The translations under genes were made by a program, and so were the position numbers. A stretch of DNA of 64,000 nt from Caldifarciminota bacterium. Its GTDB lineage: Bacteria > Hydrothermota > UBA3072. The stretch is taken from positions 1 to 64,000 of the forward strand of contig JAFGHJ010000030.1 of assembly GCA_016930175.1 (NCBI GenBank). Reading direction: 5' to 3'. Positions 3,125 to 55,155 of this stretch are shown here, in pieces; position 1 is the first letter of the stretch, and the number at the start of each line of letters is the position of its first letter. The notes under the pieces were generated by a model. The model did no database searches. It was not told the origin of the DNA and saw only the letters and a list, made by a program, of their open reading frames with translations.

Positions 3125-3145
3125 CTTAGATTCGAAGAATCTAAG
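3125..3145. repeat. Perfect inverted repeat, member of the GATTC-TTC-GAATC family
   Basis: Nine-base arms CTTAGATTC and GAATCTAAG flank a three-base centre. It lies between moxR and the DUF58 gene and is followed by AAATAG-rich words. Related copies occur at 48487-48538, 48803-48830 and 55008-55040. No T-run follows on the minus strand, so a simple terminator is unlikely; a repeat family member or RNA-processing hairpin is more plausible. Confidence 0.7.
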
Positions 3146-3281
3146 TTAAATAGAGAAATATCAAAATAGTGAAATAGTATCATAGATTTTTTTTCTCTAT
3201 TTTTTTATTTTTGTTCGTCCCAAATTTACCATTTTTCAATTTTTCCATTTTTCTAACTTTCTTTTTAGCAGCTCTGCCGCG

Positions 3282-4271
3282 CTACGGGATTTCAATTGCT
3301 TCTAAGATATCTCTTATTATATCTTCCTCTTTCACGCCTTCTGCTTCAGCTTCGTAAGATAGTATTATCCTGTGCCGTAGAATGTCATATACAGCAGCTT
3401 TAACATCTTCAGGGATAACAAACCCACGTCTCTGCAAGAAAGCATGCGCCCTTGCTGCTTCGAAGAGATATATGGAAGCTCTTGGGGATGCGCCGTACCT
3501 GATATACACGTCGAGGTCTTTAATTCCGTAGTCGGAAGGTTTTCTTGTGGCGAATACTATATCTATTATATAATCCCTTATTTTTTCATCCGCGTGAATC
3601 TTGTAAATGAAATCCCTGAGCGAGTTAAGTTTCTTTATATCTACCACAGGTTTGGTTACAGGAAGTTCCTCGGCTGTTTGTTGTTTCATTATTCTCTTTT
3701 CTTCTTCTTTATTGGGATAAGTTATTACGAGTTTCTGCTTAAATCTATCCACCTGAGCTTCGGGGAGAGGATATGTTCCTTCCTGCTCAATCGGGTTCTG
3801 AGTCGCGAGAACCATAAAAGGCTCGGGCAAAGGGTAAGTCTCATCTCCTATTGTTACCTGCCTTTCCTGCATTGCTTCGAGTAAAGCGCTTTGGACCTTT
3901 GGGGGAGCTCTGTTTATCTCGTCTGAAAGTATAAAGTTCGCGAAGAGAGGGCCTTTCTTAGGTGTAAAATCACCTGTTTTCTGATTGTATATCTGTGTTC
4001 CTGTGATGTCAGCCGGGAGCAGGTCGGGTGTAAACTGAATTCTTCTGAATGTCGCCTTTACTGCTGCTGCCAGTGTTTTAATTATATAAGTTTTAGCCAA
4101 CCCCGGAACTCCTTCGATGAGTATATGTCCCCTCGTAAGAAGACCTATTATGGTTTTTTCAATAATTTCTCTTTGCCCTATAATAGATTTACCTATTTCT
4201 GCAAAGAGGTTTTCTATTATAGCGCTTTTATCTTTCGCTTCAGCATTAAGATTCTGTAAATCTACAGTCAT
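3282..4271 (-). CDS. moxR: MoxR family AAA+ ATPase
   Basis: 329 residues from the chosen start. It has Walker A GVPGLAKT, Walker B LSDEINRAPP, the ALLEAMQER helix and the ATQNPIEQEGTYPLPEAQ stretch that defines MoxR ATPases, and a C-terminal lid domain. It is a cytoplasmic AAA+ chaperone-like ATPase working with the DUF58 and VWA proteins encoded downstream. The open frame extends to 4286, but the five extra codons are themselves the ribosome binding site (GGAAGGAGGTAAA), so the ATG at 4271 is the real start. A -35/-10 pair lies at 4342-4315. Confidence 0.93.
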   Translation of the reverse strand: MTVDLQNLNAEAKDKSAIIENLFAEIGKSIIGQREIIEKTIIGLLTRGHILIEGVPGLAKTYIIKTLAAAVKATFRRIQFTPDLLPADITGTQIYNQKTGDFTPKKGPLFANFILSDEINRAPPKVQSALLEAMQERQVTIGDETYPLPEPFMVLATQNPIEQEGTYPLPEAQVDRFKQKLVITYPNKEEEKRIMKQQTAEELPVTKPVVDIKKLNSLRDFIYKIHADEKIRDYIIDIVFATRKPSDYGIKDLDVYIRYGASPRASIYLFEAARAHAFLQRRGFVIPEDVKAAVYDILRHRIILSYEAEAEGVKEEDIIRDILEAIEIP

Positions 4272-4314
4272 TTTACCTCCTTCCATCCATTATATTTTGT
4301 TATGGGAACGCCAA

Positions 4315-4342
4315 AATTTAATTATCATTAAATTCTTGTCAA
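4315..4342 (-). promoter_or_regulatory. Sigma-70-type promoter of the Bat operon
   Basis: TTGACA at 4342-4337, a 16-bp spacer, and TAAATT at 4320-4315. The predicted start site is about 38 bases before the moxR ATG at 4271. Confidence 0.55.
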
Positions 4343-4371
4343 CCCCCGCAGTAAGCTCTTAATTTTTGCTT

Positions 4372-5277
4372 TCATTTAACTTCATTTATTTCCGATTGTT
4401 CCGTAAGCGCTTCTCTTATACCTTTACCTCTATAATGATATTTTATAAGCCATTTAAGAAAAGGGTAAGAGAAGCCGTTTTTGTGACACATTAAATACTC
4501 TAGACCCTTTTTTTCTACCCAATGTTCCGTTCCGAAGAATTTCGTGACGAAATCTACATAACTTTTCTTTACATGTCGAGCTGCGGCACTTTTCCCAAAT
4601 TTTTGTGAAAATCTTACCGAGTTTTTTCCTCTCTCGTAAGATTTTTTTATAATCGACTTAATTTTATCAGTCGTTTCGTATCCGTCAAAATGCCAGGCAA
4701 GGCAGCTTCTAAAAGCGTAGGCAGTTCTTAATGCTAAGTTATTTTTTAATCTTCTTCCTATTTCTACGTCCATGTAACCCATTGTATTCCCAAAAGATTC
4801 GTCAAATCCGCCAGCTTCGATGAGATGCTTCTTCTTTACCGAAACATTTTGGGTAATAAGTCCGGCAAGGCACAGTCCGTCAATCTTCCAATTCGACTTT
4901 CCGTAGTCTTCGATTTTACGGATATGTCTCACCATGCCCTGAACAATTAACTTTTCTCTTTTTTTATGCAGATTTACATGATCTTGAATAAAGTTTTTGT
5001 CGACCAGAACATCGGAATCCACAAATATTATTATATCTCCTCTTGCGTTCTTGATTCCTTTGTTTCTCGCGTACGGTTGTCCTTTCTTTTCTTTGTTTCT
5101 AAAATAGCGAAAACGTTTATCTTTTATTTTTTTCATTAAGTTGCCGGTTGAATCGGTTGAACCGTCATCTATTGCTATGACTTCGTAGTCATCTGCCGAT
5201 TGGTTAAGCAGTTTTTCTATACAGTGAGTTAGAACAGGACCCCTATTGTATGCTACTATTATTGCTGAAGCTTTCAT
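4372..5277 (-). CDS. GT2-family glycosyltransferase
   Basis: 301 residues. It opens with the GT-A nucleotide-binding strand ASAIIVAYNRG, then IAIDDGSTDST and the metal-binding DxD motif as VDSD near residue 92. The acceptor part contains GGFDESFG and a cytoplasmic basic tail; no membrane helices. Family knowledge: it transfers a sugar from a nucleotide donor, probably for surface polysaccharide or glycolipid. Its 5' end overlaps the upstream paralogue by 35 bases, so the two are co-expressed. The pair share the same domain order and are recent-looking paralogues. Substrate cannot be deduced. Confidence 0.87.
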   Translation of the reverse strand: MKASAIIVAYNRGPVLTHCIEKLLNQSADDYEVIAIDDGSTDSTGNLMKKIKDKRFRYFRNKEKKGQPYARNKGIKNARGDIIIFVDSDVLVDKNFIQDHVNLHKKREKLIVQGMVRHIRKIEDYGKSNWKIDGLCLAGLITQNVSVKKKHLIEAGGFDESFGNTMGYMDVEIGRRLKNNLALRTAYAFRSCLAWHFDGYETTDKIKSIIKKSYERGKNSVRFSQKFGKSAAARHVKKSYVDFVTKFFGTEHWVEKKGLEYLMCHKNGFSYPFLKWLIKYHYRGKGIREALTEQSEINEVK

Positions 5278-6175
5278 TGTTTCTTGCTTTTTTTATCCCT
5301 TTACTTCGGTAATGGTAACGGGCTATTCCTTTAAGCACGGCTGCCGCTAGACCCGTATTCTTTTTACTTCGAACAATCATTTTAGGTATATTTTCGTTTT
5401 CTATCCACTTATCTGTACGTAGCAGCCGGCTAAAAAAGAGAGCTTTTTTTGTCCGTGCGTATTTTTCGCCTCTTCTTCCCCATTTTTTAACAAAATAGTA
5501 TGCTGAAGCACCCTGTTTTGTCCATTTGTTAAAGGTGCTTATAGTACTTTTTTCCGTTGGCTTTCCGTCTATATGAAAAGCCTTGCACTTTCTTATACCA
5601 TAAATCCATTTTAATCCAAGGTCCATTAATTTTAGTCCCGTGTCTATATCTTTGTAACCCATTTCAGGCCCAAACCGGTCGAAACCACCGGTAGCTATAA
5701 GGTATTTTCTCCGTACAGACGCGTTTTGCGTTATGAAAGTTCTGAGACAAAGAGCATTTGGTATATAAAATCTATTCATGTTAATATCTTTGATACTTTT
5801 TACGTGTTTTATCATTCCTTGAACAACAATATCTTCTCTTCTTCCGTGTATTTTTATATGGTCTTCGACAAAGTCCGGAAATACAATTACATCGGAATCG
5901 ACGAATATTATTATTTCTCCCTTTGCCTGTCTTATCGCTAAATTTCTTGCGTAATATGGACCGAGATGCTCTTTCAGGCGAATATATTTTAAATTGGGGA
6001 AATTAGAACTCTTTATGTATTCCTTTGTTCCGTCCGAAGAACAGTCATCTATAAGGAGAATTTCAAAGTTTTCGGTTGTTTGATTGATAAGTTTTGTAAG
6101 ACAGCTTTTGAGCACTGTGAGCCTGTTGTAAGTTGGTAGAATTACTGTCGCTTCGATTTTCATTTTAATAGCCAC
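5243..6175 (-). CDS. GT2-family glycosyltransferase (paralogue of the neighbour)
   Basis: 310 residues with the same layout as the next gene: EATVILPTYNRL, LLIDDCSSDGT, FVDSD (DxD) and GGFDRFGPEMGYKD. It is a predicted nucleotide-sugar transferase for envelope glycans. The frame opens with GTG at 6175, while an ATG lies four codons later at 6163; neither has a convincing Shine-Dalgarno sequence. The bases around the start (CCGTGTAAATCCGTGGCTAT) are a dispersed intergenic word also seen at 10510-10535, so the start region looks like repeat DNA captured by the gene. The upstream LpxB-like gene ends only a few bases away. Confidence 0.85.
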   Translation of the reverse strand: MAIKMKIEATVILPTYNRLTVLKSCLTKLINQTTENFEILLIDDCSSDGTKEYIKSSNFPNLKYIRLKEHLGPYYARNLAIRQAKGEIIIFVDSDVIVFPDFVEDHIKIHGRREDIVVQGMIKHVKSIKDINMNRFYIPNALCLRTFITQNASVRRKYLIATGGFDRFGPEMGYKDIDTGLKLMDLGLKWIYGIRKCKAFHIDGKPTEKSTISTFNKWTKQGASAYYFVKKWGRRGEKYARTKKALFFSRLLRTDKWIENENIPKMIVRSKKNTGLAAAVLKGIARYHYRSKGIKKARNNESFSNNSSIQ

Positions 6176-6179
6176 GGAT

Positions 6180-7304
6180 TTACACGGATAAACAAAGATT
6201 TTTACCTCTATTTTTTTCTTCTCTTTGAAATATATAGTTAGCTATCGCTCTCGATCCGCCGGATTCTCCGGCTCTTTGTTTTCCTTTTTCTTTTAGCTCT
6301 TCTAAAAGCGCTTTATTCTCGATTATCTCCAGAATTTTTTCTGCTATTTTTTTCGGCCTATACGGAAGTAATATAAACGCATCTCCGAGTAGTTTTTTTT
6401 GCCCTTTTAGTCTTCTTTTTGTATTTTGAGCTCCTCTTCCCGGGAATGATATAACGGGGGATTCGAGATAAAGAGCCTGCTCGCTTGCCGTTCCCGCAAG
6501 ACTTATAACAAGCTTTGAGCTCTTTACTATTCTTTCGAAACTCCCGTAAAGGAAATCGATTTTTTCCGGTAGTCCCGGCACATATTCCATCATTTTATTT
6601 TTATCAATAGTATCAGAAAGCGCAACAGCGAAATGCAGATTTTTTTTAAGGGTAAGAATTTCTTTAACCACCCTTCCTATTTTTCTCATATTCTCATATG
6701 CTTCTTTTCTTGACCCGGGAAGCAATCCTATAAGAGTCTTTCCGCTGGGCGGGGGATATTTCCTTTCTTCCTGCAAATCATCCATCATCGGGTTTCCGAA
6801 AAATTCGGCATTAATGCCCTTATTTTGCAAGTCTTCTGCTGTGATTTTATCGTGGGTAAAGACTTTATTTGTAAGTTTACGCATGAAAAACCTTTCCACG
6901 GCAAAGTGTGGAAATATATAGTTGGATTTGCATTGTTCCAGAAAGTATGCTTTTTTACGCAAAGAAATATATCCGAGAATCAGTATGGGAACGTCTCCTG
7001 CAATTATTACAATGTCTGTATTTTTTCTAAACTTACGAAGGCAGTCTACATAGGAAAACGGCAGAAAAAAGGCTTTTGTAATATCCGAAAAAAAGCTTTT
7101 TGCGCTTTTAAAAAGAAATCCGCCTGAGGGAGGAGGCGGATGACCTCCGATTACCTTGATATTTCTTTTTTCGTATTCTTCTCCGAAAGAGATCAGAGGA
7201 AAAGCATTGATTTTTATCTTTTTATTCAAACTTTTTAGCTCTTTTGCAATCAATGCTCCGCTTCTGTCTTCACCGTAAGAATTGCTTAATATTGCAACAT
7301 TCAT
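6180..7304 (-). CDS. LpxB-like lipid-A-disaccharide synthase-related glycosyltransferase
   Basis: 374 residues. GT-B fold pattern: an N-terminal ILSNSYGED segment, a central FGNPMMDDL, then LIGLLPGSRKEAY and the C-terminal donor-site stretch SLAGTASEQALYLESPVISFPG. These are features of the lipid-A-disaccharide synthase-related family rather than canonical LpxB. It would act at the cytoplasmic membrane, making a glycolipid. The last ten or so codons (NRGKNLCLSV) are read out of a dispersed repeat word, so the natural C-terminus may have been remodelled by repeat insertion. The ATG at 7304 has no Shine-Dalgarno sequence. Confidence 0.78.
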   Translation of the reverse strand: MNVAILSNSYGEDRSGALIAKELKSLNKKIKINAFPLISFGEEYEKRNIKVIGGHPPPPSGGFLFKSAKSFFSDITKAFFLPFSYVDCLRKFRKNTDIVIIAGDVPILILGYISLRKKAYFLEQCKSNYIFPHFAVERFFMRKLTNKVFTHDKITAEDLQNKGINAEFFGNPMMDDLQEERKYPPPSGKTLIGLLPGSRKEAYENMRKIGRVVKEILTLKKNLHFAVALSDTIDKNKMMEYVPGLPEKIDFLYGSFERIVKSSKLVISLAGTASEQALYLESPVISFPGRGAQNTKRRLKGQKKLLGDAFILLPYRPKKIAEKILEIIENKALLEELKEKGKQRAGESGGSRAIANYIFQREEKNRGKNLCLSV

Positions 7305-7339
7305 TATGGTTTCATAATCGTAATTTTGAAGAAAAAGTC

Positions 7340-7500
7340 AAGGCGGTTTTAGTTTACCACAGAGTACACAGAGAAAAAAACGAACTCACGGAGTACACAG
7401 AGAAAAGATAGCTCTGTTTTACCCCACGCACAACCCAAAAAATTCTCACACAGAGAGCACGAAGACACAAGGTTTTTATGTGTTATTTTTTTCTCAAGAC
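7340..7500 (-). repeat. Patch of TCTGTGTAC / CTTTGTGTGAGA intergenic words
   Basis: Read on the minus strand this gap contains two near-identical TTTCTCTGTGTACTC words, then a TCTCTGTGTGAGAAT word followed by TTGGGTTGTGCGTGGGG. The last part matches blocks at 15244-15300 and 48686-48729. No open frame. Confidence 0.6.
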
Positions 7501-7507
7501 TAATTTC

Positions 7508-8377: not shown

Positions 8378-8386
8378 ATTTCTTAC

Positions 8387-9142: not shown

Positions 9143-9243
9143 GATATTTCCTTAAAATAGACATTAATTCTTAAAAACCCTTTTTCTGTTTAAAGCCAAG
9201 GAAGTTGTCTGCTACTCCCTAACTTTTTCAAAGAGGTGACTAT

Positions 9244-10455: not shown

Positions 10456-10565
10456 GTAGTTGAAAAATTTTTTCAAAAGATTAAACACTTATGAAATAGA
10501 AAATCTGTGCAAATCAGTGTAAATCCGTGGCTATTATAGGGGTTGTTTGGTGAGGTTCTTCTCTA

Positions 10566-15019: not shown

Positions 15020-15328
15020 TAAATTCATTTAGTCCCGGCGTTAAGTATCTTCGTTAAGAAGAGAAAAAATTTGTGCTATTTGTGTGAGTTAGGGTTTAGG
15101 GTTTCGTTTTAAAGTTTCGAGTTAAAAACAACAAAAATAAATCCTTTTAAATCTGAGTTCATCTGCGTCCCAACTTAGAACTTTGGATTTGGGGGTGGGT
15201 TTTATTAACAAAAAAATAATATTTTTTTTGGTTGTGTGGTGGGGCTTTGTGTTCTTTGTGTGAGATTAATTTTGGGTGGTAGTGGGTGTGGGTTCTTGAC
15301 AATAAAATAGACTTTGTTAATATGAGCT
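15020..15328 (+). repeat. Intergenic word mosaic upstream of alaS
   Basis: This 309-base gap has no credible open frame. It contains in order: TTGTGCTATTTGTGTGAGTT, a GTTTAGGG doublet, a GGTTTCG...AAAGTTTCGAGTTA block (15100-15124, matched at 55081-55106), TCATCTGCGTCCCAACTTAG, GGATTTGGGGGTGGG, and at 15244-15300 a CTTTGTGTTCTTTGTGTGAG block. The last ends in the TTGAC that forms the -35 box of alaS; a diverged copy lies at 48686-48729. Confidence 0.65.
15296..15323 (+). promoter_or_regulatory. alaS promoter, leaderless arrangement
   Basis: TTGACA at 15296-15301, 16-bp spacer, TAATAT at 15318-15323. The alaS ATG begins at 15329, five bases after the -10 box, exactly where transcription should start, and no Shine-Dalgarno sequence exists. 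Confidence 0.65.
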
Positions 15329-19615: not shown

Positions 19616-19922
19616 ATATCAAAACATTTAACAACAAATAAAACTAAGCTTTCTATGTCTCCCCCCGCCTCATTTTTTAACAACAAATAGCACAAATTTC
19701 ACAAATAAATTTAAGAATATTAATTTTTATTAATATAGATAATAAAGTTTGTTTTACTAATATTCGTGTTATTCGTGTGATTTGTTGTTTCTTGTTTTTT
19801 ACTTTTTTAACTTTAATTTAAGATTTTACATCTTGATATTTGATTTTTACATTGTGAAGGGCTTATAATGTCGCTTTTTCTTTAAAATTTTTGTTTGATA
19901 ATGCAGGAGTATTGGTAATTGT
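19616..19922. repeat. Intergenic region with inverted copies of the ATTCGTGTGATTTGTTG word
   Basis: The 307-base gap between convergent genes holds AACAACAAATAGCACAAATT at 19679 onward and, about 80 bases later (19761-19790), its reverse-complement relative TATTCGTGTTATTCGTGTGA followed by TTTGTTGTT. Together they could fold into a long imperfect hairpin. Near-identical same-strand copies are at 45819-45850 and 60506-60537. No gene seen. Confidence 0.65.
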
Positions 19923-20537: not shown

Positions 20538-20594
20538 TGTTTTTTCCTTCTTTTTTTGTATTATTAATTTTAATTTCGCTTTTTCCTCTATAAT

Positions 20595-20622
20595 AATATA
20601 ATGATAAGTTAAATTTTTGCAA
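20595..20622 (-). promoter_or_regulatory. Promoter of the LexA/CI-like regulator
   Basis: TTGCAA at 20622-20617, 16-bp spacer, TATATT at 20600-20595. Confidence 0.45.
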
Positions 20623-20718
20623 TAGACGAAGGATAATAACTTTAATATACAATATTCATCGGTGTATATTTTATAAAAATTTTCTACGTATATGCCGTTT
20701 GAAGCAGAAAAAACCCCC

Positions 20719-20747
20719 TTGACAAATTATTGAAAAAATCGTAAAAT
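20719..20747 (+). promoter_or_regulatory. Promoter of the HD-GYP gene
   Basis: TTGACA at 20719-20724, 17-bp spacer, TAAAAT at 20742-20747. The mRNA leader would be about 70 bases. Confidence 0.6.
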
Positions 20748-20822
20748 AAAACTTAAGATTATATATTTTTATAAAAATTTGATTAGTAATTAAGCAGTTC
20801 TTTATAATTAGAGGTGTATGAA

Positions 20823-26961: not shown

Positions 26962-27004
26962 AAAATTTTAAGTTTAAAGTGACTCATTGAATCTTTAAAT
27001 TAAC

Positions 27005-27032
27005 TTGACAAAAAGGGGTGAACTAATATACT
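27005..27032 (+). promoter_or_regulatory. Promoter of glnA
   Basis: TTGACA at 27005-27010, 16-bp spacer, TATACT at 27027-27032; no NtrC-type sigma-54 motif noticed. Confidence 0.65.
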
Positions 27033-27083
27033 TTAACCTGATTTATAGGATAAATACGAATAAATCTATATTATGGGGGGAAA

Positions 27084-30074: not shown

Positions 30075-30156
30075 ATCTTTTTTACCACAGAGAACACAGA
30101 GTTTTTTGTTTTTTTAACTCCCTCTAAATCCAAGGTCCTGAAAACGGAGGAGAAGA

Positions 30157-34954: not shown

Positions 34955-36151
34955 TTAATTTTTTATCATTACTGCCGCGAGCCCTTCCGAAAAATCCCAT
35001 GCCCAATCGAACCCCGGTTCTATAACCCATGCCCCTTTTTTGTCGATAAAACCATGTTTAGAATTTTTCCTTGCCGCCGCGAGCCCTTCCGAAAAATCCC
35101 CGACATTATCGAATCCGGGCTCTATTATTATTTGCCCGCTTGTATCGATGTAACCCCATTTGCCGTTTTCCTTTACCGCCGCCAGCCCTTCGGAAAATTT
35201 CCCGGCAAAATCGAAGTTTGATTCGATTATAATTTCGCCGGTTTTGTCGATAAAGGCAAAACTATCTTCTTTTATTATCCTTGCTAGCCCGTCAGAAAAA
35301 GTATCCATATTGAATTCTATATCGATGTAGTAGTATTTATTGCGCAGCCAGGCTCTTTTTTTTATATCTACTAAAGTTAATTCCTCGGGACGATATTCTG
35401 ACCATTCAAATTGAGGTTTTATAACCCATTCTCCCTTTTTGTCTATGTAACCCCAATTACGATATGTCCATACTTTTGCCAGCCCTTCGGAAAAGTCGCA
35501 GGCAGATTTTAATTGCGGTTCGATAACCCATTTGCCCCTCTTATCTATATAACCACGTCTGCCTCTTATTTTCCTTAGTCCTCTGGTAATAATACCCGGC
35601 TCTTCAGCCCAGGCTAACCCTTCGTGAAAATCCCCTGCGTCGTTAAATTGAGCCCTGATTACCATTTTGCCGGTCTTATCTATATACCCGTATCCCCGGT
35701 TTTCCTTTACTACCGCCAAACCCTCGGAGAATCTCCCGGCTTCATCAAATTCCGGTTCGATTACTATATCACCGGCTTTATCGATGTACCCGAATTTGCC
35801 GTCTATCTCTACCGCCGCCAGCCCTTCGGAAAAATAACGGGCGGCGTCGAATTCGGGTTCGATTACAACCTCGCCTTTTTTATTGATGAACCCGTATTTG
35901 TTGTCTTTCTCTATCATAGCCAGTCCTTCGGAGAAGTGCCCGGCGTATTTGAATTGCAATTCGATTACAACCTTACCGGTTGTATCGATATAACCCCACT
36001 TACCTTCTGGTGTTGTTTGCAATGTGTGTTCCCAATGAGGAAGGTCGTCGAAATGTGCATTATCTACATTTTTTTCGATTTCATCTGCTAAAACATCATT
36101 AATCCCAAATAGCGTAAAAGTTATTAGTATGAAGAAGGACAGTTTTTTCAT
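34955..36151 (-). CDS. Exported WG-repeat protein
   Basis: 399 residues from the chosen ATG. Signal peptide MKKLSFFILITFTLFGINDVLA, then about nine WG/YIDKTG repeats of roughly 35-45 residues with the core KYGYIDK-G-xVIEPxFDxAxxFSEGLAAV. WG repeats form extracytoplasmic beta-rich domains of unclear role; many occur in predators and gut bacteria. The open frame extends 23 codons upstream to 36220, but a perfect promoter (36198-36170) lies inside that stretch, and GGATGGG precedes the ATG at 36151. Confidence 0.85.
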   Translation of the reverse strand: MKKLSFFILITFTLFGINDVLADEIEKNVDNAHFDDLPHWEHTLQTTPEGKWGYIDTTGKVVIELQFKYAGHFSEGLAMIEKDNKYGFINKKGEVVIEPEFDAARYFSEGLAAVEIDGKFGYIDKAGDIVIEPEFDEAGRFSEGLAVVKENRGYGYIDKTGKMVIRAQFNDAGDFHEGLAWAEEPGIITRGLRKIRGRRGYIDKRGKWVIEPQLKSACDFSEGLAKVWTYRNWGYIDKKGEWVIKPQFEWSEYRPEELTLVDIKKRAWLRNKYYYIDIEFNMDTFSDGLARIIKEDSFAFIDKTGEIIIESNFDFAGKFSEGLAAVKENGKWGYIDTSGQIIIEPGFDNVGDFSEGLAAARKNSKHGFIDKKGAWVIEPGFDWAWDFSEGLAAVMIKN

Positions 36152-36340: not shown

Positions 36341-38623
36341 TTAGTTTATTAAAGTTACCTTTATCTTTGTATTGATTCCCGGTCCAAGCATTTCGACAAA
36401 GTATATGTCGCTCGGGAGATTTAACTCCTTAAGCGACAGAGGATAACACCCGCGTTTCACTTTTCCGTTAAGAAGTGTTCCTTCTTCTCTTCCTAACTTG
36501 TCGTATATCTTAACCGTAACTTCGCCTTCTTCCGCTACCGCGCAGAGAATCTCTCCGCTTCCGAACGCGGCGCTTATACCGGAAACAGCGGGAATTTCTT
36601 CGATGCCCTCCGCTACGACTTCGATGTCTACCGTGGTATTGAGAGTGTCTAAGAGATTTGCGGATACCCACATTGTCTGTACCGTAACGTTTTCTTCGGT
36701 GCTTCCCGCAGTAAATTCAGTGTACACTTCGCCCGCTCCGTCAGTTACGCCGCTCGTGGGATCCAGGGAACCATCACCGGTTATAACGGCAAAGTTAAGT
36801 TCTTCACCCGCGACAGGGGAACCGTCTTTTTCAAGATAGGCTGTCAGGGCTAAAGTTGCGCCGAACTCGATTGTTTCGCCGTCCGGAGACAGGGAAAGTC
36901 CGTCGGCGGTGCTTCCCGCTATGACTTCGATATCGACCGTGGCGGTGAGAGTGTCGAGAAGATTATAAGATACCCACATTACTTCTACCGTGACGGTTTC
37001 TTCAGTGCTGCCCGCGATAAAATCTGTTTGTACTTCGCCCGATGCGTCAGTCACGCCGCTCGTGGGATCCAGGGAACCATCACCGGTTATCACGGCAAAG
37101 TTAAGCTCTTCGCCTTCGACACCGGAAGCGTCTTTTTCAAGATAGGCTGTCAATTCTAAAGTATCGCCGAACTCGATTGTTTCGCCATCCGGAGACAGGG
37201 AAAGTCCGTCGGGGGTTAACCAGTCGCTTCTGTCGAACCATGCCATCTCTTCCGTTGTGGGATAGTTGACATATAATATGCCGTAGATTCCGTCAGCTAT
37301 CCTTTCGATGCAGGGTTTTATGTTCGCGCGCGTCACGTTGTCTGCAAAAGAAACCGGCGGAGTCCATAGGCTCGAACTGTAACTTCTGTGTCTGTATATC
37401 CCTTCGGCTGACAACCCTGTTGTTTGGTACACGGCACCGATACCATCTCCTCCTCTTGCGGTAACGTCATTTACCCAGCTCGCAGTATTTGAGGCGCTTA
37501 ATATAGTTCCCACGCCCCAGTTGCTTCCGTTATTAGTAGTGATATAATATCTAACTTCATGGGTGGGTGAAGTAGGAAAGGGATAAACAATAATAACAGT
37601 GTCTCCGTAAGCGGATATTGATGTTACATAAAAGCCGTTAGTTCCGAGATCCGCTGAAGTCGGATAAGTAGTCCATGATGACCATCCTCCTATAAAATAG
37701 AGTTCGTTGTCTGTCCCGATATATGAAGCCCACAGTTTATTTGGAGCCGCCCAGCAGGCGTCTATTCCTCTATCCACGTTCGGGACGTTAAAATTGACGG
37801 TACGAGTCCAGGATGTCGCCGTCGGATTGCTGAAATATAGTCTCATCGAGTCGTTTTCCATAAGGGCTAAGAAAAACAGGTATTGAGAGGTAGGGCTGTC
37901 GGCGTCGCTGGTAAGCACGATTTCTCTTAAGACAACTCCTTCGTTGATAACTGTTAAATATGCGTATGCGTTGTCAGAGGTACCGTCGCTTGTAGAAAAT
38001 CTTCTTATTCGTCCTACTTGATTATCGAGGTTTGTATATGCCACATAAAAATAGCCGTTATAAACGGCGGCGTCTATATAAAATTCATTATCGACAGAGG
38101 CAGTCCAGAGATAAGTTTCTGTCCAGGTTTTTCCTGTGTCTGATGACATGTTTATGGTAAATCTATAATAAGTATCATTATACTGGTAAAGAAGGACTGC
38201 TAGCAAATTCCCGTTGGAATTGTCCACATCGAAATCGATATCCGTAATCGAATCTACCGTACCTACACGAACATCACCCGCCCACCTACTTAAGGGTGTC
38301 TTAACAGGTTCTTTCCACTGTATTCCCAGAGCCGCGTTTTCCAGTTCGGTCGCTCTTTTCAGCGATTCTATCGCTTCTTCGTAGTCTCCTCTATTCCATG
38401 TTTCTTCGATTAAGTCGGCTTGCTCCATGTTTTCTTCATTATATTCTATATCTATAACAGCGTTCGATTTTTCGTATGTGGATAAATTTTCCAGTATTTG
38501 AGAGATGGGCTGACTTTCAGTCGAGCTTATGTTTGGAATATCGTAAGTTCCCTGGTTGTCTTCCGAAGCCAATCCTGCGAAAGAAAACAAAATACACACA
38601 AAAACGACCAATACTTTTTTCAT
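36341..38623 (-). CDS. Large surface protein with beta-propeller-like region, two Ig-like repeats and C-terminal sorting domain
   Basis: 760 residues. Signal peptide at 1-19; a short helical part with Glu-rich repeats; a long beta region (about 110-470) containing SSDTGKTWTETYLWT and NNGSNWGVGT Asp-box-like blades, as in sialidase-type propellers. Then come two 102-residue Ig-like (Big_1-type) repeats, each opening DGLSLSPDGETIEFG, nearly identical in DNA too. The C-terminus (VTVKIYDKLGREEGTL; SDIYFVEML) is a sorting domain. It is predicted to be secreted and surface bound. Shine-Dalgarno AAAGGAGG. Confidence 0.82.
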   Translation of the reverse strand: MKKVLVVFVCILFSFAGLASEDNQGTYDIPNISSTESQPISQILENLSTYEKSNAVIDIEYNEENMEQADLIEETWNRGDYEEAIESLKRATELENAALGIQWKEPVKTPLSRWAGDVRVGTVDSITDIDFDVDNSNGNLLAVLLYQYNDTYYRFTINMSSDTGKTWTETYLWTASVDNEFYIDAAVYNGYFYVAYTNLDNQVGRIRRFSTSDGTSDNAYAYLTVINEGVVLREIVLTSDADSPTSQYLFFLALMENDSMRLYFSNPTATSWTRTVNFNVPNVDRGIDACWAAPNKLWASYIGTDNELYFIGGWSSWTTYPTSADLGTNGFYVTSISAYGDTVIIVYPFPTSPTHEVRYYITTNNGSNWGVGTILSASNTASWVNDVTARGGDGIGAVYQTTGLSAEGIYRHRSYSSSLWTPPVSFADNVTRANIKPCIERIADGIYGILYVNYPTTEEMAWFDRSDWLTPDGLSLSPDGETIEFGDTLELTAYLEKDASGVEGEELNFAVITGDGSLDPTSGVTDASGEVQTDFIAGSTEETVTVEVMWVSYNLLDTLTATVDIEVIAGSTADGLSLSPDGETIEFGATLALTAYLEKDGSPVAGEELNFAVITGDGSLDPTSGVTDGAGEVYTEFTAGSTEENVTVQTMWVSANLLDTLNTTVDIEVVAEGIEEIPAVSGISAAFGSGEILCAVAEEGEVTVKIYDKLGREEGTLLNGKVKRGCYPLSLKELNLPSDIYFVEMLGPGINTKIKVTLIN
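36602..37213 (-). repeat. Tandem 306-bp duplication encoding two Ig-like domains
   Basis: Unit 1 spans 37213-36908 and unit 2 36907 to about 36602. The protein units are 102 residues and start with identical 15-residue stretches; DNA conservation is also high (e.g. CGAACTCGATTGTTTCGCC in both). This suggests a recent duplication. Confidence 0.8.
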
Positions 38624-41823: not shown

Positions 41824-42024
41824 AATATTCTCCTTTAGTTTAATGGTTTGAACTGTACTTATTAACATAAGCGTTAAAAACACTTATGTCAAGAAAGATA
41901 ATGTTACGAAGACAAAAAGAAATTGGGACGCAGATAAACGCAGATTTTTAGGATTTTATTTTTTGTTTTTCCTAATTAACCAATCAACCAATTTCCCAAT
42001 TAACTGGTGTGAAGCATCTCCCCC

Positions 42025-45785: not shown

Positions 45786-45818
45786 GGCCTTGTTTGATTT
45801 TTTAACAGGGGAATTCTT

Positions 45819-45850
45819 TATTTGTGATATTTGTGTGATTTGTTGTTAAA
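45819..45850 (+). repeat. TATTTGTGATATTTGTGTGA word copy
   Basis: 32 bases, one mismatch from the copy at 60506-60537 and closely related to 19761-19790. All end in TTTGTTGTT. Confidence 0.75.
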
Positions 45851-45893: not shown

Positions 45894-45952
45894 GTTAAAT
45901 AGGAACATATAATCATAGTATTAATTTAGTGTACTAAATTAATAAGTCAAGC
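45894..45952. repeat. 59-bp exact direct repeat, copy 1
   Basis: Identical to 48845-48903. It contains a 24-base palindrome (45920-45943: ATTAATTTAG-TGTA-CTAAATTAAT). On the minus strand it reads TTGACT (45950) and TAAATT (45928) at 16 bp, a possible promoter overlapping the palindrome. Confidence 0.85.
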
Positions 45953-46215
45953 ATTGGAGATTTCGTACATTAAATTAGAGAAATGGGAAAATAGAAAAAT
46001 GGGTAAATGGGGGAGACAAAATAAAAACTGCGAGGTGTCAGTAGGTTTTTCGTTAGTGTGTTAGTGCGTGGGTGTGTTGTTGTGTTTTGTTTTTTTGCTA
46101 AGCCCTAACCCCTAAATCCTATATCCTAAAATTGCTGACTAACAGTTAAAGATCTTTGTGGTTTTTGTGAAAACAGAGTTACGAGTTAGCAATAACAAAA
46201 AAGAGGCAAGCTAAT

Positions 46216-48407: not shown

Positions 48408-48685
48408 GACGATTTGTTGTTGATGAAGATGAGAGAAGTTGTAAGTTAGAATTTAGTTCGTGGTTCATTGTTCGTCGTTCGTAGTAGAAGATTCTACGAA
48501 TCTAAGTTGAGTAGTAAAATAGAAAAATGGTTAAATAGCTATACGGATCCTTCGGATCAGTAATAATTTTGAATTTTGAGTGTTGAACGATATTAATTTT
48601 GAATGTTTAATTTTAAATTTGCAATTTTCAACTTACAATTTACAATTAGATACTCGGCGGTAAACGGATAGCCGATTTTCTTAGT

Positions 48686-48729
48686 CGCTTTGTGTGAGAT
48701 TAATATTGGGTTGTGGTGGGGCTCTTGAC
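48686..48729 (+). repeat. CTTTGTGTGAGATTAAT-TTGGG word copy ending in TTGAC
   Basis: Matches 15255-15300 closely: CTTTGTGTGAGATTAAT, then TTGGGT-GT-GTGGG and CTTGAC. In both, the final TTGAC is a possible -35 box (here TTGACT with TAGAAT 17 bases on), but no gene follows here. Confidence 0.7.
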
Positions 48730-48844
48730 TTATCCCCAAAAAATCTTTAGAATCTAAAATCGAAATTTTAACAGGGTCACCTATGAAATGTGAAAAGATT
48801 CCATAGATTCTTCGAATCTCGTCGAATCCCCAAATCTCCGAACA

Positions 48845-48903
48845 GTTAAATAGGAACATATAATCATAGTATTAATTTAGTGTACTAAATTAATAAGTCA
48901 AGC
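48845..48903. repeat. 59-bp exact direct repeat, copy 2
   Basis: Identical to 45894-45952, including the palindrome at 48871-48894. The flanks differ, so it behaves as a discrete unit. Confidence 0.85.
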
Positions 48904-48905
48904 GC

Positions 48906-49056
48906 GGTGCGTAGCACCGAGTCACTAGTCGCTGGTCATTAGTCAAAAAAAGCAAAAAAAACGACGGAAGACGGCAAAGAATACAAAGAAGTCAAGAGGC
49001 GATGCGTAGCACCGAGTCATCAGTCACTAGTCTCTGGTCATTAGTCAACAAAAAAC
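48906..49056 (+). repeat. Two GTAGCACC...GTCATTAGTC blocks
   Basis: Blocks at 48906-48950 and 49001-49056 each hold GCGTAGCACCGAGTCA, then imperfect 10-base units (AGTCACTAGTC, GCTGGTC, ATTAGTCAA). A shortened relative is at 53080-53115 after acpP, and a variant at 44467-44511. The first block also has a GGTGC/GCACC hairpin. Confidence 0.7.
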
Positions 49057-49162
49057 TTTGCGTCTTTGTGTGAGAACAGAGTTTCGAGTTAAAGAAACAG
49101 GTATTAGGTTTAGGGGAAAAATAGAAAAATACGGGCCGCCGGGCATCAGCTTAAAAAAACCC

Positions 49163-49190
49163 TTGACAAATTTGAAAAAATCATTATAAT
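49163..49190 (+). promoter_or_regulatory. Consensus promoter of the 49230 lipoprotein gene
   Basis: TTGACA at 49163-49168, 16-bp spacer, TATAAT at 49185-49190. Confidence 0.75.
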
Positions 49191-49200
49191 ACTTTATATA

Positions 49201-49214
49201 ACAAAGCACTTTGT
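49201..49214. promoter_or_regulatory. Candidate operator palindrome ACAAAG-CA-CTTTGT
   Basis: Perfect 6-base arms just after the predicted transcription start and four bases before AAGGAGGG. It could be a repressor site or a 5' hairpin. Confidence 0.45.
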
Positions 49215-49229
49215 TGTAAGGAGGGTGAA

Positions 49230-50718: not shown

Positions 50719-50949
50719 TTAGAGAATTTACATACCTTAAATTAGAGAAATGGTTAAATGGCTTTTTCTTTGTGTTCTTCGTGTGCTTTGCGGCAATATT
50801 TTGGGATTTTGGATTTAAGGATTGGGATTTAGAAAAGATGCAGTTCACCGCTAATGGCTGATAGGTTTTATTTAGGATTGGGAGAAAAGCAGGGAACGTG
50901 AAGAGTTTTGAATGTTGAATTGAGAACAGGAAAAGAAGAATATTTTTTC

Positions 50950-50977
50950 TTGACAAGTAAGAACAGAATCGTAATTT
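50950..50977 (+). promoter_or_regulatory. Promoter of the ankyrin protein gene
   Basis: TTGACA at 50950-50955, 16-bp spacer, TAATTT at 50972-50977, inside the longer open frame. Confidence 0.6.
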
Positions 50978-51000
50978 ACATGAAAGAAGGAGAAGGTTTT

Positions 51001-51924
51001 ATGGAGTCTAAAAAATCGGAAAATAAAGGAATTCGTAACTGGCTTTCTCGTAGAAGGGAGAATGCGAATCAGCAATCAAATGTAATGCCGGAAAAATCAA
51101 AGGATTTTTCTGCCAGAGATGAGGCTGTTGGGCCTGAGGAAAAAGAAAGCGTTACAAACCTGATGGATGCGGCATCACATGGGAACGTAGACAAGGTAAA
51201 ACTACTTTTGGACAAAGGCGCGGATGTTAACACGAAAAACAAAAAAGGCTGGACCGCCTTGATGTTTGCGGCGTCCGAAATGCGGGCTGAAACGATTGAG
51301 TTTTTGCTGGGCAGGGGTGCGGATATTAATGCTAAAGACAAAGAAGGTAATTCTGCCTTAATGATTGCTGAGTCAGTGTGTCATGCCGGCACCATGAAAC
51401 TTTTGCTGGATAAAGGGGCAGACATTAATGCCAAAAACAAAGAGGGCTGGACAGCCCTAATGAATGCGGCAGCTAAAGGTCATTTCGAAATGGCGAAATT
51501 CTTGGTGTTCAGCGGTGCGGATGTTAACATAAAAGATAAGGAAGGTTGGACAGCCTTGATGCTTGCATCCTCACAGGGGCATACCGGTACCGTCCGACTA
51601 CTGCTGGACAAGGGTGCGGATGTTAATGCCAAGAATAAAGACCGGGGAACGGCTTTGACGTCATCGGCGTTTAACGGTCACACCGAGACGGTAGAACTAC
51701 TGCTGGACAGGGGTACGGAGGTCAATCACAAAGGTGGAAATGGTTATACGGCATTGATGAATTCGGCGATAAAAGGACACATCGATACGGCAAGACTCCT
51801 GATAGACAGGGGTGCGGACGTTAATGCAAAAAACACAATTGGTGGCACGGCTTTTACGATTGCGGAGTTGGGTAATTACACCGAATTTATTTATTTGTTG
51901 GAAGCGTCAGGTGCTGGAGAGTAA
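51001..51924 (+). CDS. Ankyrin-repeat protein
   Basis: 307 residues. A charged N-terminal segment of about 45 residues is followed by eight ankyrin units of 33 residues, each with the core TALM-AA-GH-ET-KLLLDKGADVNAK. No signal peptide; probably cytoplasmic protein-binding scaffold. The frame extends to 50908, but that part is repeat-derived (GAATGTTGAATTGAGAACAG) and contains a promoter; GGAGAAGG precedes ATG 51001. DNA similarity between units is moderate, so the array is not very recent. Confidence 0.88.
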   Translation: MESKKSENKGIRNWLSRRRENANQQSNVMPEKSKDFSARDEAVGPEEKESVTNLMDAASHGNVDKVKLLLDKGADVNTKNKKGWTALMFAASEMRAETIEFLLGRGADINAKDKEGNSALMIAESVCHAGTMKLLLDKGADINAKNKEGWTALMNAAAKGHFEMAKFLVFSGADVNIKDKEGWTALMLASSQGHTGTVRLLLDKGADVNAKNKDRGTALTSSAFNGHTETVELLLDRGTEVNHKGGNGYTALMNSAIKGHIDTARLLIDRGADVNAKNTIGGTAFTIAELGNYTEFIYLLEASGAGE

Positions 51925-52011
51925 AAAAGATAGCTCTCGGCTTACCGCTCACAGCTGACAACAAAAAAAATCTGCGAATCCTTTTCCTATCTCAATCCCA
52001 GGGAAAAACTC

Positions 52012-52039
52012 TTGACTTTTGATAACAGCACAATATCAT
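52012..52039 (+). promoter_or_regulatory. Promoter candidate for the plsC-acp unit
   Basis: TTGACT at 52012-52017, 16-bp spacer, TATCAT at 52034-52039. It leaves a leader of about 160 bases that contains the small frame at 52081. Confidence 0.45.
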
Positions 52040-52080
52040 TTAAGCAATGAGTAGGTCTGCCATAGATCAGAAAACCTGCT

Positions 52081-52206
52081 ATGTGCAAGAGTACTCCAGA
52101 GGGAGAAAAAATAGGAAAACTAAAAGAAATATCATACATTATAACATTCACGGCTTTAGCCTTAAGTCCAGGGTATTTGCTCTCATATATACCAATTAGG
52201 ATATAG
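52081..52206 (+). CDS. Small ORF (41 residues) abutting plsC in the same frame
   Basis: The frame begins MCKSTPEGEKIGKLKEISYI and ends SYIPIRI, with a short hydrophobic middle. Its TAG stop directly precedes the plsC ATG, and both are in the same frame. No good Shine-Dalgarno sequence precedes the ATG; a GAGGGAG lies inside the frame. It may be a leader peptide, a small membrane protein, or an N-terminal extension of PlsC lost by a stop. Confidence 0.35.
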   Translation: MCKSTPEGEKIGKLKEISYIITFTALALSPGYLLSYIPIRI

Positions 52207-52824
52207 ATGTTTTATTCAATCGTACATTCAATCTTTCGTGTTATAGCAATAATCTATATTAGATTACAAGCTATTAGAGTTGAAAACATTCCGGAAGAAG
52301 GCGGCGTAATCCTGGCACCAAACCATCCCAGTGATCTGGACTCATTTATTCTGGGAGCTGCGATCAACAGACAACTCCATACAATGGGCAAAGAGGAACT
52401 ATTTAGAAAACGCTTTGCAGGATTCGTCTTTAGAAAGTTGAACGCTTTCCCCGTAAGAAGAGGAGAATTTGATAGAGAAGCCATCCGAACTGCTATTAAA
52501 ATCCTAAAAGATGGCCATGTAATAGATATGTATCCAGAAGGAACGGTGAGCTTAGACGGCTCTTTACAGGAGCCAAAATCGGGAACAGCATTTATTGCTT
52601 TGCAGGCAAAGGCAGCTGTTGTTCCTGTAGCGATAATTGGTTCTTTCGATGTTATGTCAAAAGGGCAAAGATTTCCCCGACCGCATAAAGTAATACTCAA
52701 ATTTGGGAAACCACTCTATTTTGATGAATATTATGGCAAGCCTTATAATAGAGAAACATTAAAAATCGTAACCGAGAAAATAATGGACGAGATAAAAATA
52801 CTGTTGAACTCGGATAAATTATAG
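52207..52824 (+). CDS. plsC: PlsC-type 1-acyl-glycerol-phosphate acyltransferase
   Basis: 205 residues. The acyltransferase motif I is NHPSDLDS (His 40, Asp 45), followed by FPVRRGEFDR, the YPEGTVSLDGSL glycerophosphate-binding motif and VVPVAIIGS. It acylates lysophosphatidate at the membrane, using acyl-ACP or acyl-CoA. Its neighbour 10 bases downstream is an acyl carrier protein, which suggests the ACP-dependent type or a dedicated acyl pair. AGGATAT precedes the ATG. Confidence 0.9.
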   Translation: MFYSIVHSIFRVIAIIYIRLQAIRVENIPEEGGVILAPNHPSDLDSFILGAAINRQLHTMGKEELFRKRFAGFVFRKLNAFPVRRGEFDREAIRTAIKILKDGHVIDMYPEGTVSLDGSLQEPKSGTAFIALQAKAAVVPVAIIGSFDVMSKGQRFPRPHKVILKFGKPLYFDEYYGKPYNRETLKIVTEKIMDEIKILLNSDKL

Positions 52825-52834
52825 GAGGCGAACC

Positions 52835-53071
52835 ATGTCAGTATTTGAGAGAATAAAAAGAATTGTGGCGAAAGAATTTGACGTAAAGGCAACGGAAATT
52901 TTGCCGAAAAGCTCTTTTGCGGACGACCTTGGAGTAGATAGCCTCGGCTATGTTATACTACTACAAGCACTCGAAGAAGAATTCAATATGGAGTTCCCGG
53001 ATGAAGAAACAATGGATCTTAGAACTGTCGAAGATGCCGTAAAATACATAGAGAGTAAGATACAAAAATAG
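52835..53071 (+). CDS. acpP: Acyl carrier protein
   Basis: 78 residues, acidic. The phosphopantetheine site is DDLGVDSLGYV with Ser 36, and the recognition helix is present. AGGAGG lies seven bases before the ATG. ACPs in a general fatty-acid locus are normally beside fabF or fabD; here the partner is plsC, so this may be a second, dedicated ACP. A GTCATCAGTCACTG repeat word begins nine bases after the stop. Confidence 0.94.
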   Translation: MSVFERIKRIVAKEFDVKATEILPKSSFADDLGVDSLGYVILLQALEEEFNMEFPDEETMDLRTVEDAVKYIESKIQK

Positions 53072-53204
53072 ATATAATTAAGTCATCAGTCACTGTTCAT
53101 TAGTCAGAAACAAGAAATAAAAAACTTTGTGGGTAACCAACAACCTCTCTGGTGATATAGTTTAACCTTCCCCACGATACAAAACCAGAAAACGATTAAT
53201 GCCG

Positions 53205-54800
53205 TTACCCCAGGTTTTTCCTTCGTCCCCTTTTTTTCTGTTTTGCCTTTGTTACAAAGAGCCCTGATCTTGTTTTTCTGTTTTTGAAATGCGATAGTAA
53301 TATTTCCGCTTCATGAAAGGGAAGAGTCACAAAAGAAAACTTGTCGAGTATTTTTATATCTTTTATATTCCGGTTAGAAATATTGCATATCTTTTTTATT
53401 AACTCTACTAATTTTTTAGCGTTCAATCCATCTTTTTTACCGTGTGTTACAAATAAGCGTGTTTTGCCTTTGTTGTCAACATAAGCATTTTTTATTTCTG
53501 TATAGTTTTTCTCATTTAATTCATCTTGAAAAGTGTACTGAAGAATCGCCGCAAGTATATTTTCCGGATTGTTGCTTTGCAGAAGTTCCCGTGACATTTC
53601 AATATATTCTTTATGAAGTTCAGATTTTGAAATTTTTTCAAGATCCGATTTAATTTTGAGTTTTTTTGTTTCTATTACGTCTTTGATTTTTGGAAGCTTT
53701 GCCTTACGAATGTCTGTTTTCGCTGCCCTTTGAATAAATTTCAGTTTTTTGTATTCTTCCGGTGTTACGAAAGTGATGGCGATTCCTTCCCTACCTGCTC
53801 TTCCGGTTCTTCCTATTCGATGAACGTAATATTTAGGATCCTGAGGAAGAGCATAATTGATTACATGTGTAAGATTTTGAACATCCAACCCTCTTGCTGC
53901 CACGTCGGTTGCCACAAGAATATTTATGAAATGTTTTTTAAATTTGTTTAATATTCTTTCTCGTAAATGTTGCGACATATCTCCATGTAGAGCATCTACG
54001 TCGTAACCGCGTTCCATTAGATGTTTTGCAAGGTCGTCCACATCGATTTTAGTCCTGCAAAATACAAGTCCGTAAAAGTCATCTTCAATATCTATAATTC
54101 TGCACAGGGCTTCGAATTTATTTTCAGAATGCACTTCAAAGTAGATTTGATCTGTTTGGCTTACCGTAAGGTCCCCATTAGTTACCCTGAAAATATCATA
54201 TTCCACCATATATTTCTCTGCTATATTTATAATTTCTTTTGGCATTGTAGCCGAAAACAGCATAGTTCTTTTTTCTTTAGCTGTGTGTTCCATAATTTTT
54301 TTCACGTCATCAAGAAAGCCCATATCCAGCATTTCGTCCGCTTCATCAAGTATTAGGTGAGATATCCTGTCCAGTTTTAAAGTACGGCGGTTAAGATGGT
54401 CTATAACTCTCCCGGGTGTGCCAACGACGATATCGACGCCTTTTTTTAAGCTTCTGAGCTGTCTGGAAATTGCCTGTCCGCCATATATAGGGATAATTCG
54501 TAGTTTTTTACTTCCTTTTAGTGAATTGATTTCTTCCGCTACTTGAATCGCAAGTTCTCTTGTCGGTGTAAGTACAATTGCCTGGACGTTATTCGATCTT
54601 TCTCGAAGAAGTTCAATCAATGGAAGGCCGAAAGCGGCAGTTTTACCTGTTCCGGTTCGTGCCTGACCTATAATATCCTTTTTACCCGCGAGTAAGACCG
54701 GTATAGTTTGTTCCTGTATAGGCGTTGGTTCTTCAAACCCTCTTATTTTTAAAACATTAAGAGTTTTTTCTGATAAGCCTAAATCTTTAAAAGATTTCAT
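53205..54800 (-). CDS. DEAD-box RNA helicase
   Basis: 531 residues. All motifs are visible: Q motif (FKDLGLS...PIQEQ), ARTGTGKTAAFG, PTRELA, GTPGRVID, DEAD, SAT, and HRIGRTGRAGREG. The C-terminal 80 residues are a DbpA-type RNA-binding domain and a basic tail (KQKKRGRRKNLG). It resembles CsdA/DeaD-type helicases used in ribosome assembly and cold growth. The message seems to carry a leader of about 110 bases (promoter at 54944-54917). Shine-Dalgarno AGAGGAAA. Confidence 0.93.
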   Translation of the reverse strand: MKSFKDLGLSEKTLNVLKIRGFEEPTPIQEQTIPVLLAGKKDIIGQARTGTGKTAAFGLPLIELLRERSNNVQAIVLTPTRELAIQVAEEINSLKGSKKLRIIPIYGGQAISRQLRSLKKGVDIVVGTPGRVIDHLNRRTLKLDRISHLILDEADEMLDMGFLDDVKKIMEHTAKEKRTMLFSATMPKEIINIAEKYMVEYDIFRVTNGDLTVSQTDQIYFEVHSENKFEALCRIIDIEDDFYGLVFCRTKIDVDDLAKHLMERGYDVDALHGDMSQHLRERILNKFKKHFINILVATDVAARGLDVQNLTHVINYALPQDPKYYVHRIGRTGRAGREGIAITFVTPEEYKKLKFIQRAAKTDIRKAKLPKIKDVIETKKLKIKSDLEKISKSELHKEYIEMSRELLQSNNPENILAAILQYTFQDELNEKNYTEIKNAYVDNKGKTRLFVTHGKKDGLNAKKLVELIKKICNISNRNIKDIKILDKFSFVTLPFHEAEILLSHFKNRKTRSGLFVTKAKQKKRGRRKNLG

Positions 54801-55155
54801 AATTTATTTCCTCTTTGATCTAACATAGTTTAAGTGTACTAAAAAAAGATAACAAATATACTATATTAAAATCTTGGTTTTTTGTTTAAATTAAACTAAA
54901 TACATTATAAGTTTCTATAATAATCATTTTTTCCTAATTAACAAGGCTTTTTGTTTATTTGTCAACAGTATCAGCATGGTCAAACTTTGAAATGTGAAAA
55001 GAATACGTAGATTCTTCGGATTAGTAAAATGGTTAAATAGTGACAAATAGAGAGTAGGGAGTAGGAGAAATAAGGTTTCAGGTTTCGTGTTTAAAGTTTC
55101 GAGTTAGAAAACAGTCTAACGGACTAACGGACCAACGATTGAAAATCTTTGTGGT
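54801..55155. repeat. 355-base intergenic region: helicase leader and repeat words
   Basis: The proximal part is the AT-rich leader and promoter of the helicase gene, with AGTTTAAGTGTACTAAAA at 54829, resembling half of the palindrome in the 59-bp repeat. The distal part has GAAATGTGAAAAGAATACGT and TAGATTCTTCGGATT (54990-55024), an AAATGGTTAAATAG word, GGTTTCGTGTTTAAAGTTTC and AACGGACTAACGGACCAACG tandem words. Confidence 0.6.
54917..54944 (-). promoter_or_regulatory. Promoter candidate of the DEAD-box helicase gene
   Basis: TTGTTA at 54944-54939, 16-bp spacer, TATTAT at 54922-54917. It gives a leader of about 110 bases, as in cold-shock helicase genes. Confidence 0.4.

Follow-up and report, generated by a model that had tools for sequence, protein, structure and literature searches.

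What are the short sequence words that recur between the genes of a 64-kb stretch of a Caldifarciminota bacterium draft genome, and where do they come from? The stretch (contig JAFGHJ010000030.1, positions 1 to 64,000; G000:C38:1-64000) is called the window here, at its full length. To our knowledge, reports of short words dispersed between genes go back decades but offer no mechanism. An initial annotation of the window had described a single patchwork of words without a role. We find instead that the words split into two classes by unit length, each linked to a different small gene family, and that in other genomes they form inverted-repeat ends. It is probable that the words are the ends (arms) of very small fold-back elements belonging to two families, and that the copies in the window's genome are worn solo ends of such elements, of two kinds resembling the intervening sequences (IVS) of 23S rRNA; this degree of confidence applies solely to reading the words as element ends.

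Intergenic words and their unit lengths

Words were counted in 464 kb, made up of the 64-kb window and 400 kb of stretches from the same 2.34-Mb draft genome. Genes were called with a simple codon-based script (~88% coding), which divided the sample into 409 kb of coding and 54.7 kb of intergenic DNA. It is evident that the words favour intergenic DNA, as had been claimed, since they are ~10-100 times denser between genes than within them. CTTTGTGTGAGA has 14 intergenic copies and 1 coding copy, TCTGCGTCC 19 and 2, GGATTTAGG 7 and 1, and TCATTAGTC 9 and 1; genome-wide, there are 64 copies of CTTTGTGTGAGA and none of the pattern read backwards. As many as 102 different 12-mers have at least 6 intergenic copies, compared with 0-4 in third-order Markov simulations, and quasi-tandem arrays with 7-10-bp units number 188 between genes versus 15 in a simulated control (~13-fold). 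The condition named earlier for refuting the observation, 12-mers no more frequent between genes than in a random model or equally frequent inside coding sequence, is therefore contradicted, and the earlier view that the words reflect copying rather than chance is supported.

At lags 7, 8, 9 and 10 the intergenic autocorrelation rises to peaks that are echoed at 14 and 21; neither simulated sequence nor genes show the lag 7-10 peaks. The words are therefore degenerate repeats of a short unit, with no fixed strings. Class I comprises 9-10-bp units fitting CRCRRAK (CTTTGTG, CTCTGTG, ATCTGCG and others), and Class II comprises 7-8-bp units (AGTCATT, GGATTTA, GGCTATT and others). Most of the first group of words in the initial annotation follow one grammar, CRCRRAK every 8-10 bp, and the remaining words are mostly 7-8-bp units. 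CRCRRAK dyads occur 83 times between genes and 4 times in genes, and a reversed control gave 0 at 9 bp. Thus the idea of the same few words holds for recurring families but not for fixed strings, which are sparse inside the window (AGTCATTAGTC 0, GGATTTTGGATTTAGG 1 and CTTTGTGTGAGA 4 copies). The proposal that nearly every gap longer than about 100 bases consists of words needs correction, as some gaps have none (e.g., 20538-20813 and 26962-27083), and words also occur beyond the proposed span, 3125-55040, at 55071-55140 and 60127-60629. No Rfam family matched the window, and a literature search using the word sequences returned unrelated papers only.

Small genes enclosed by inverted arms

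Genes of the GxxExxY family (TIGR04256/PF13366) occur beside words of this kind, which was the starting idea and was then tested. In the first instance, in genome G017, an inverted word pair lies exactly around a PF13366 match. With a hidden Markov model grown from two seeds we obtained 79 usable GxxExxY genes. Inverted word arms surround 34 of these, a further 13 have a single arm in position, and 25 lack arms. Fourteen of the 34 enclosed genes belong to relatives that were not picked for words. We further applied a word-independent test, searching gene flanks for inverted repeats, with swapped flanks and other genes of the same loci as controls. Inverted-repeat flanks were found for 58 of 81 GxxExxY genes, compared with 13.5% for swapped flanks and 40 of 1047 (3.8%) for the other genes. 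The arm periods of GxxExxY genes are 9 (14 genes), 10 (5) and 8 (4), and 34 of the 58 show no clear period at the cut-off used.

The same test links the second class to the four-helix-bundle 23S IVP/S23 family (PF05635), in which 50 of 68 genes have inverted-repeat flanks, compared with 2.8% for swapped partners and 3.8% for other genes in the same loci. Here the period is 7 in 30 of the 50 and 8 in 6. In two cyanobacterial genomes the flanks are near-exact heptamer arrays (GGGGCAT at L356, AGAAGGA at L357), so that the resemblance to short tandem words of cyanobacteria noted earlier fits the 7-bp class; words of the 9-10-bp class are not of that type. The family matches two Protein Data Bank (PDB) entries, 2gsc and 2rld, both uncharacterised.

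The window's own genome contains both gene families. One GxxExxY gene (L369) has CTTTGTG/CTTCGTG arms, another (L370) has ATCTGCG arms, and a four-helix gene (L366) has GTTAGTG arms. These gene-bearing elements end in the words of the window, which ties the window words to element ends. Window words also end four-helix genes elsewhere: GGATTTA in the congener G001 (L249), the GGCTATTAGC type (L341) and a GTTCGTCGTTCGT-like word (L347). Within the L369 element, a composite arm block lies inside the right side, and hence nested insertion or partial copies are possible.

Without phylogenetic correction, word counts in the phylum correlate with PF13366/GxxExxY and PF05635 counts (Spearman 0.67 and 0.71), and word count tracks GxxExxY presence there (17/18 versus 5/42, p=1e-9), a result replicated in 199 Pseudomonadota sampled irrespective of their word content (17/23 versus 14/176, p=1e-11). 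The GxxExxY residues E, D, E-x-K and Q-x-x-x-Y are 96-100% conserved among 84 sequences (D/E/K/Q at least 99%), and the family weakly matches Cas4 profiles. On these grounds GxxExxY is a predicted nuclease, probably an active one of the RecB/Cas4-like group with a PD-(D/E)XK signature. A single-sequence structure model was set aside at a mean pLDDT of 46. The family is little studied and is named only in passing in the literature searched, and the loci described here give it a first genomic context.

Distribution across genomes and phyla

The Class I pattern CCACRRAK-N(2-3)-CRCRRAK has 167 copies in the window's genome, 3 in the only congener sampled (G001) and 80 in one family member. Elsewhere in the phylum it ranges from 0 to 182 copies, with a reversed control near zero. 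The counts are thus strongly patchy between close genera. A longer, three-unit Class I word, with 24 of its 26 positions fixed and a chance expectation over the collection of ~0.002 by our own estimate, matched at least 119 stretches from a dozen or more phyla. The species carry labels of Deltaproteobacteria, Bacteroides, Aminicenantes, Beta- and Gammaproteobacteria, Planctomycetes, Peptococcaceae, Cyanobacteria, Acidobacteria, Chloroflexi, Chlamydiae, Verrucomicrobia and others. In 45 named genomes, picked for containing a word, the broader pattern has 8 to 548 copies each, often hundreds, and the reversed control 0-4 matches per genome on either strand; the phylum relatives and the Pseudomonadota were picked without regard to words. 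The three-unit word was also found in 93 stretches of viral contigs.

Arm anatomy and turnover

Adjacent arms in other phyla usually form an inverted pair (77 of 97 cases), with loops of ~4-180 nt. The outer three bases agree between the arms in 39 of the 77 pairs, compared with 15.5 expected, and the arms of one element resemble each other more (0.90) than arms of different elements do (0.83). Copies without a gene are far more numerous than those with one. Several word types often lie end to end in the window's genome, for example an ATTTGTG arm, GGTGTGGTGGGG, TTTAAACAACAAAAA and a CTCTGTG arm.

Most hairpin sites are common to Bacteroides fragilis (G081) and its sister G118, with 83-94% flank identity at most sites. 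Often the two arms have switched words jointly (from CAGAG to CAGAT types), and the number of units varies. One gene-bearing element of B. fragilis is kept in G118; in G163 it is present, but its arms differ and its gene has diverged. It is absent from G116, G105 and G125, where the alignments break off precisely where the arms end, leaving 38-68 bp of unrelated sequence in between. Since they turn over at fixed sites, elements and words might be useful as markers of strains or give rise to local inversions. In one case (L196-L215; A 74754 / B 86676), the hairpin loop lies in opposite orientations in G081 and G118, a very small inversion flanked by word arms.

Proposed elements and alternative explanations

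In our proposal, a complete element would be bounded by a pair of inverted arms made of ~2-4 degenerate tandem units apiece, with either a small gene or a short loop in the middle. In Family I the units would be of the 9-10-bp CRCRRAK type and the gene GxxExxY; in Family II the units would be 7-8 bp long and the gene of the four-helix kind. Elements would be inserted or lost as units, mostly between genes, where they are least harmful, and active movement is what we infer. The arms may pair as a cruciform or RNA hairpin; the GxxExxY nuclease, or general repair enzymes, may act on the paired arms or their junction, or open them. The arms could then be spread and rewritten, both at once, by repair or template switching that uses another copy. 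The four-helix protein would be an accessory or nucleic-acid binder for Family II; such a role of S23 in rRNA intervening sequences is an assumption. Solo arms in the window's genome would be decay products. Copying of arms by nuclease or repair would explain the fixed sites, the joint change of arms, the loop inversion and the common vocabulary, and we put forward the steps from pairing to the four-helix accessory, taken jointly, as tentative. With similar reserve, we raise the possibility that minimal mobile elements lacking a transposase form a superfamily found throughout bacteria, whose variable tandem-word arms would be recognised as hairpins and be spread and rewritten by a GxxExxY PD-(D/E)XK nuclease (9-10-bp class) or a four-helix S23-type protein (7-bp class). 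If it exists, much of the stock of short words dispersed between bacterial genes would come from it, among them at least some cyanobacterial heptamers.

The enrichment, the two unit classes, the gene linkage, the enclosed genes, the matching arms, the presence and absence at an orthologous site, and the word turnover at fixed sites are what the data show, and they support the reading of the words as element ends. Several observations weigh on the other side. The arms in the window's genome are mostly solo and co-oriented (++ 20, -- 20, +- 3), its gene-bearing elements are few (2 GxxExxY, 3 four-helix), and no remnant of either gene was found across the window. By the flank test, about a quarter of the genes in each family have no inverted repeat, and GxxExxY is missing from some word-rich genomes (6 of 23 Pseudomonadota). 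Its nuclease role is read from sequence motifs, and a PDB search found no solved relative. In L369 the catalytic Asp is replaced by Asn (RLNVLIED), which suggests a dead copy, and for this reason the family may be dying in this genome. No target-site duplication was identified in the one empty-site family, the intergenic DNA being too diverged to call, and loss rather than insertion may explain these empty sites.

The words could alternatively be hairpin regulators or terminators, stem-loops at gene ends kept by selection for transcription end, as RNase III sites or for 3′ mRNA protection, with the genes merely adjoining. Many B. fragilis elements indeed begin 10-30 bp past a gene end, sites are common between species while words alter, and the outer arm bases co-vary. 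We nevertheless regard this as unlikely, since arms in the window's genome show no preference for gene strand (32 versus 35 in tandem gaps), are about equally dense whether gaps are convergent or tandem and mostly lack a partner, since the closely examined site is empty in three sister species, and since the pairing of two unit lengths with two gene families would be left unexplained. Replication slippage and template switching alone, without a dedicated element, would account for degenerate tandem units, changes in unit number, the loop inverted between species and the long solo composites of the window. This is more improbable still, given the recurrence of one three-unit word across at least a dozen phyla, the patchiness among close genera and the linkage to two gene families. 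Least probable of all is movement by a Y1 (RAYT) transposase, as for REP/REPIN elements. Y1 gene counts do correlate with word counts (Spearman 0.49), but none of 31 Y1 loci has paired word arms around the gene, and G021 has 73 words and no Y1 gene. RAYT genes bear their own non-periodic ends of other sequence, e.g., GGGGTCAG...TTGACA, seen in full genes (in the flank test, Y1 flanks were cut at the domain, not the gene). Y1 as mover of the words was rejected for this lack of a cis link.

Two observations concern the Y1 genes themselves. The RAYT-like genes L166, L169, L154, L160 and L156 have nearly perfect 23-38-bp inverted ends, e.g., AGGGGTCAGGTCTTCACTTTTGACATAA, of a type unlike the words. 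An IS200-like Y1 gene of Abditibacterium (L042, 716-1202) lies between long CACAGAG word arms and is a possible exception to the Y1-free rule.

Comparison with known systems

The reading of the words as element ends finds its closest parallels in four known systems. The 23S rRNA IVS with an S23/IVP gene, as in Coxiella, is ~0.4-0.5 kb long with inverted ends and a ~28-bp stem, is patchily distributed and is thought to have spread horizontally (PMC4990558). The 50 four-helix genes with inverted flanks, including L366, which lies outside the window, share its terminal inverted repeats around a PF05635-type gene; the window words differ in lying between protein genes rather than in a 23S rRNA helix, and the arms are built as arrays of 7-bp words, most copies lack a gene, and a parallel family carries GxxExxY instead. 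The short tandemly repeated repetitive (STRR) sequences of cyanobacteria and the TAACTGA repeats are likewise intergenic 7-bp tandem words with many copies, patchy across phyla and suspected of horizontal spread. TAACTGA repeats, known from Beggiatoaceae, Cyanobacteria and Bacteroidetes, are direct repeats reported without a partner gene (PMC4679880). Here, by contrast, 7-bp words are inverted arms flanking four-helix genes, there is a second, 9-10-bp class, and the window arrays are degenerate rather than exact tandem heptamers and include 8-, 9- and 10-bp units.

Miniature inverted-repeat transposable elements (MITEs) and other fold-back elements are also short, with inverted ends and more gene-less than gene-bearing copies. 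Terminal inverted repeats are found in other phyla (the 77 inverted pairs), while the window's genome has mostly solo arms. The elements differ from MITEs in having no fixed terminal sequence, the word varying between copies and matching within a copy, and no transposase was found; the candidate parent gene is GxxExxY, nuclease-like by motif, and no target duplication was detected in the one empty-site family. REP/REPIN elements with RAYT are small, extragenic, inverted pairs in many copies (PMC3116915), but the arms described here are not internally palindromic and enclose no RAYT. The tie of two unit-length classes to two small gene families offers a testable origin for dispersed words and a link to rRNA intervening sequences.

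Sites in the window

A clear inverted (hairpin) pair, AACAACAAATAGCACAAATTTCACAAATA ... TATTCGTGTTATTCGTGTGATTTGTTGTT, is found just once in the window, at 19679-19789, with a 53-nt loop and no strand assigned. Class I arms on the plus strand are CACAGAGTACACAGAG (7358), CACGGAGTACACAGAG (7387) and CACAGAGAGCACGAAG (7449) at 7358-7464, ACCACAGAGAACACAGAG at 30084-30101, and GGACGCAGATAAACGCAGAT at 41926-41945, a word identical to that enclosing L370. On the minus strand there are an arm of 10-bp units AATCTGTGCA AATCAGTGTA AATCCGTGGC at 10498-10531, ATTTGTGCTATTTGTG at 15069-15084, the word TCTGCGTCC as the end of ATCTGAGTTCATCTGCGTCC at 15162-15170, and CTTTGTGTTCTTTGTGTGAGA upstream of alaS at 15245-15265. 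Further minus-strand sites are CTTTATTTGTGATATTTGTGTGATTTGTTGT at 45816-45846, the word CTTTGTGTGAGA at 48688-48699 and, as the end of CTTTGCGTCTTTGTGTGAGA, at 49064-49075, TTCTTTGTGTTCTTCGTGTGCTTTGCGG at 50766-50793 and TTAGTGTATTTGGTGTGTTTCGTGGTT at 60311-60341. A minus-strand composite at 60436-60612 has three co-oriented arms, ATCTGCGTGTATCTGCG (60436), ATTCGTGATATTTGTG (60507) and CTTTGTGTTCTTTGTGGCTTTGTG (60589).

All Class II sites are on the plus strand. Arrays of 7-bp units are GAGTTAGGGTTTAGGGTTTCG at 15086-15106, CTAAGCCCTAACCCCTAAATCCTA at 46098-46121, the AATTTTG / CAATTTT type at 48564-48638, AGTCATCAGTCACTAGTCTCT of the AGTCATT family at 49015-49035 and GCTTACCGCTCACAGCTGACA at 51940-51960. 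Those of 8-bp units are AATTAACCAATCAACCAAT at 41968-41992 and CGTTAGTGTGTTAGTGCGTGGGTGTGT at 46051-46077, the latter with the word that forms the arms of L366. Both unit lengths occur at 55071-55140 (GTTTCAGGTTTCGTGTTTA, 7-bp; CTAACGGACTAACGGACCAACG, 8-bp). The GGATTTA family is represented by ATTTTGGGATTTTGGATTTAAGGATT at 50798-50823, the arrays GGATTTTGGATTTAGG, CGTGGTTCGTTGTTCCTGGTTC and TAGGATTTGGGATTTGGGG lie at 60346-60485, and the word GGCTATTAGCTT at 60562-60573 belongs to a family shared with the four-helix arms of L341.

A palindromic word, AGATTCGAAGAATCT (given earlier as TAGATTCTTCGAATC), at 3128-3144 with no strand assigned and with a second copy at 48804, falls in neither class. 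Neither does a ~53-bp near-exact duplicate at ~45910-45960 and ~48860-48912 with the palindrome TATTAATTTAGTGTACTAAATTAATA (AATAGGAACATATAATCATAGTATTAATTTAGTG...AAGTCAAGC). Minus-strand genes contain internal repeats, of 126 bp (58215-59622), 102 bp (35065-35989) and 306 bp (36610-37216). A small open reading frame (ORF) at ~52835-53070, absent from the 100-aa ORF list, reads as an acyl carrier protein (MSVFERIKRIVAKEFDVKATEILPKSSFADDLGVDSLGYV...).

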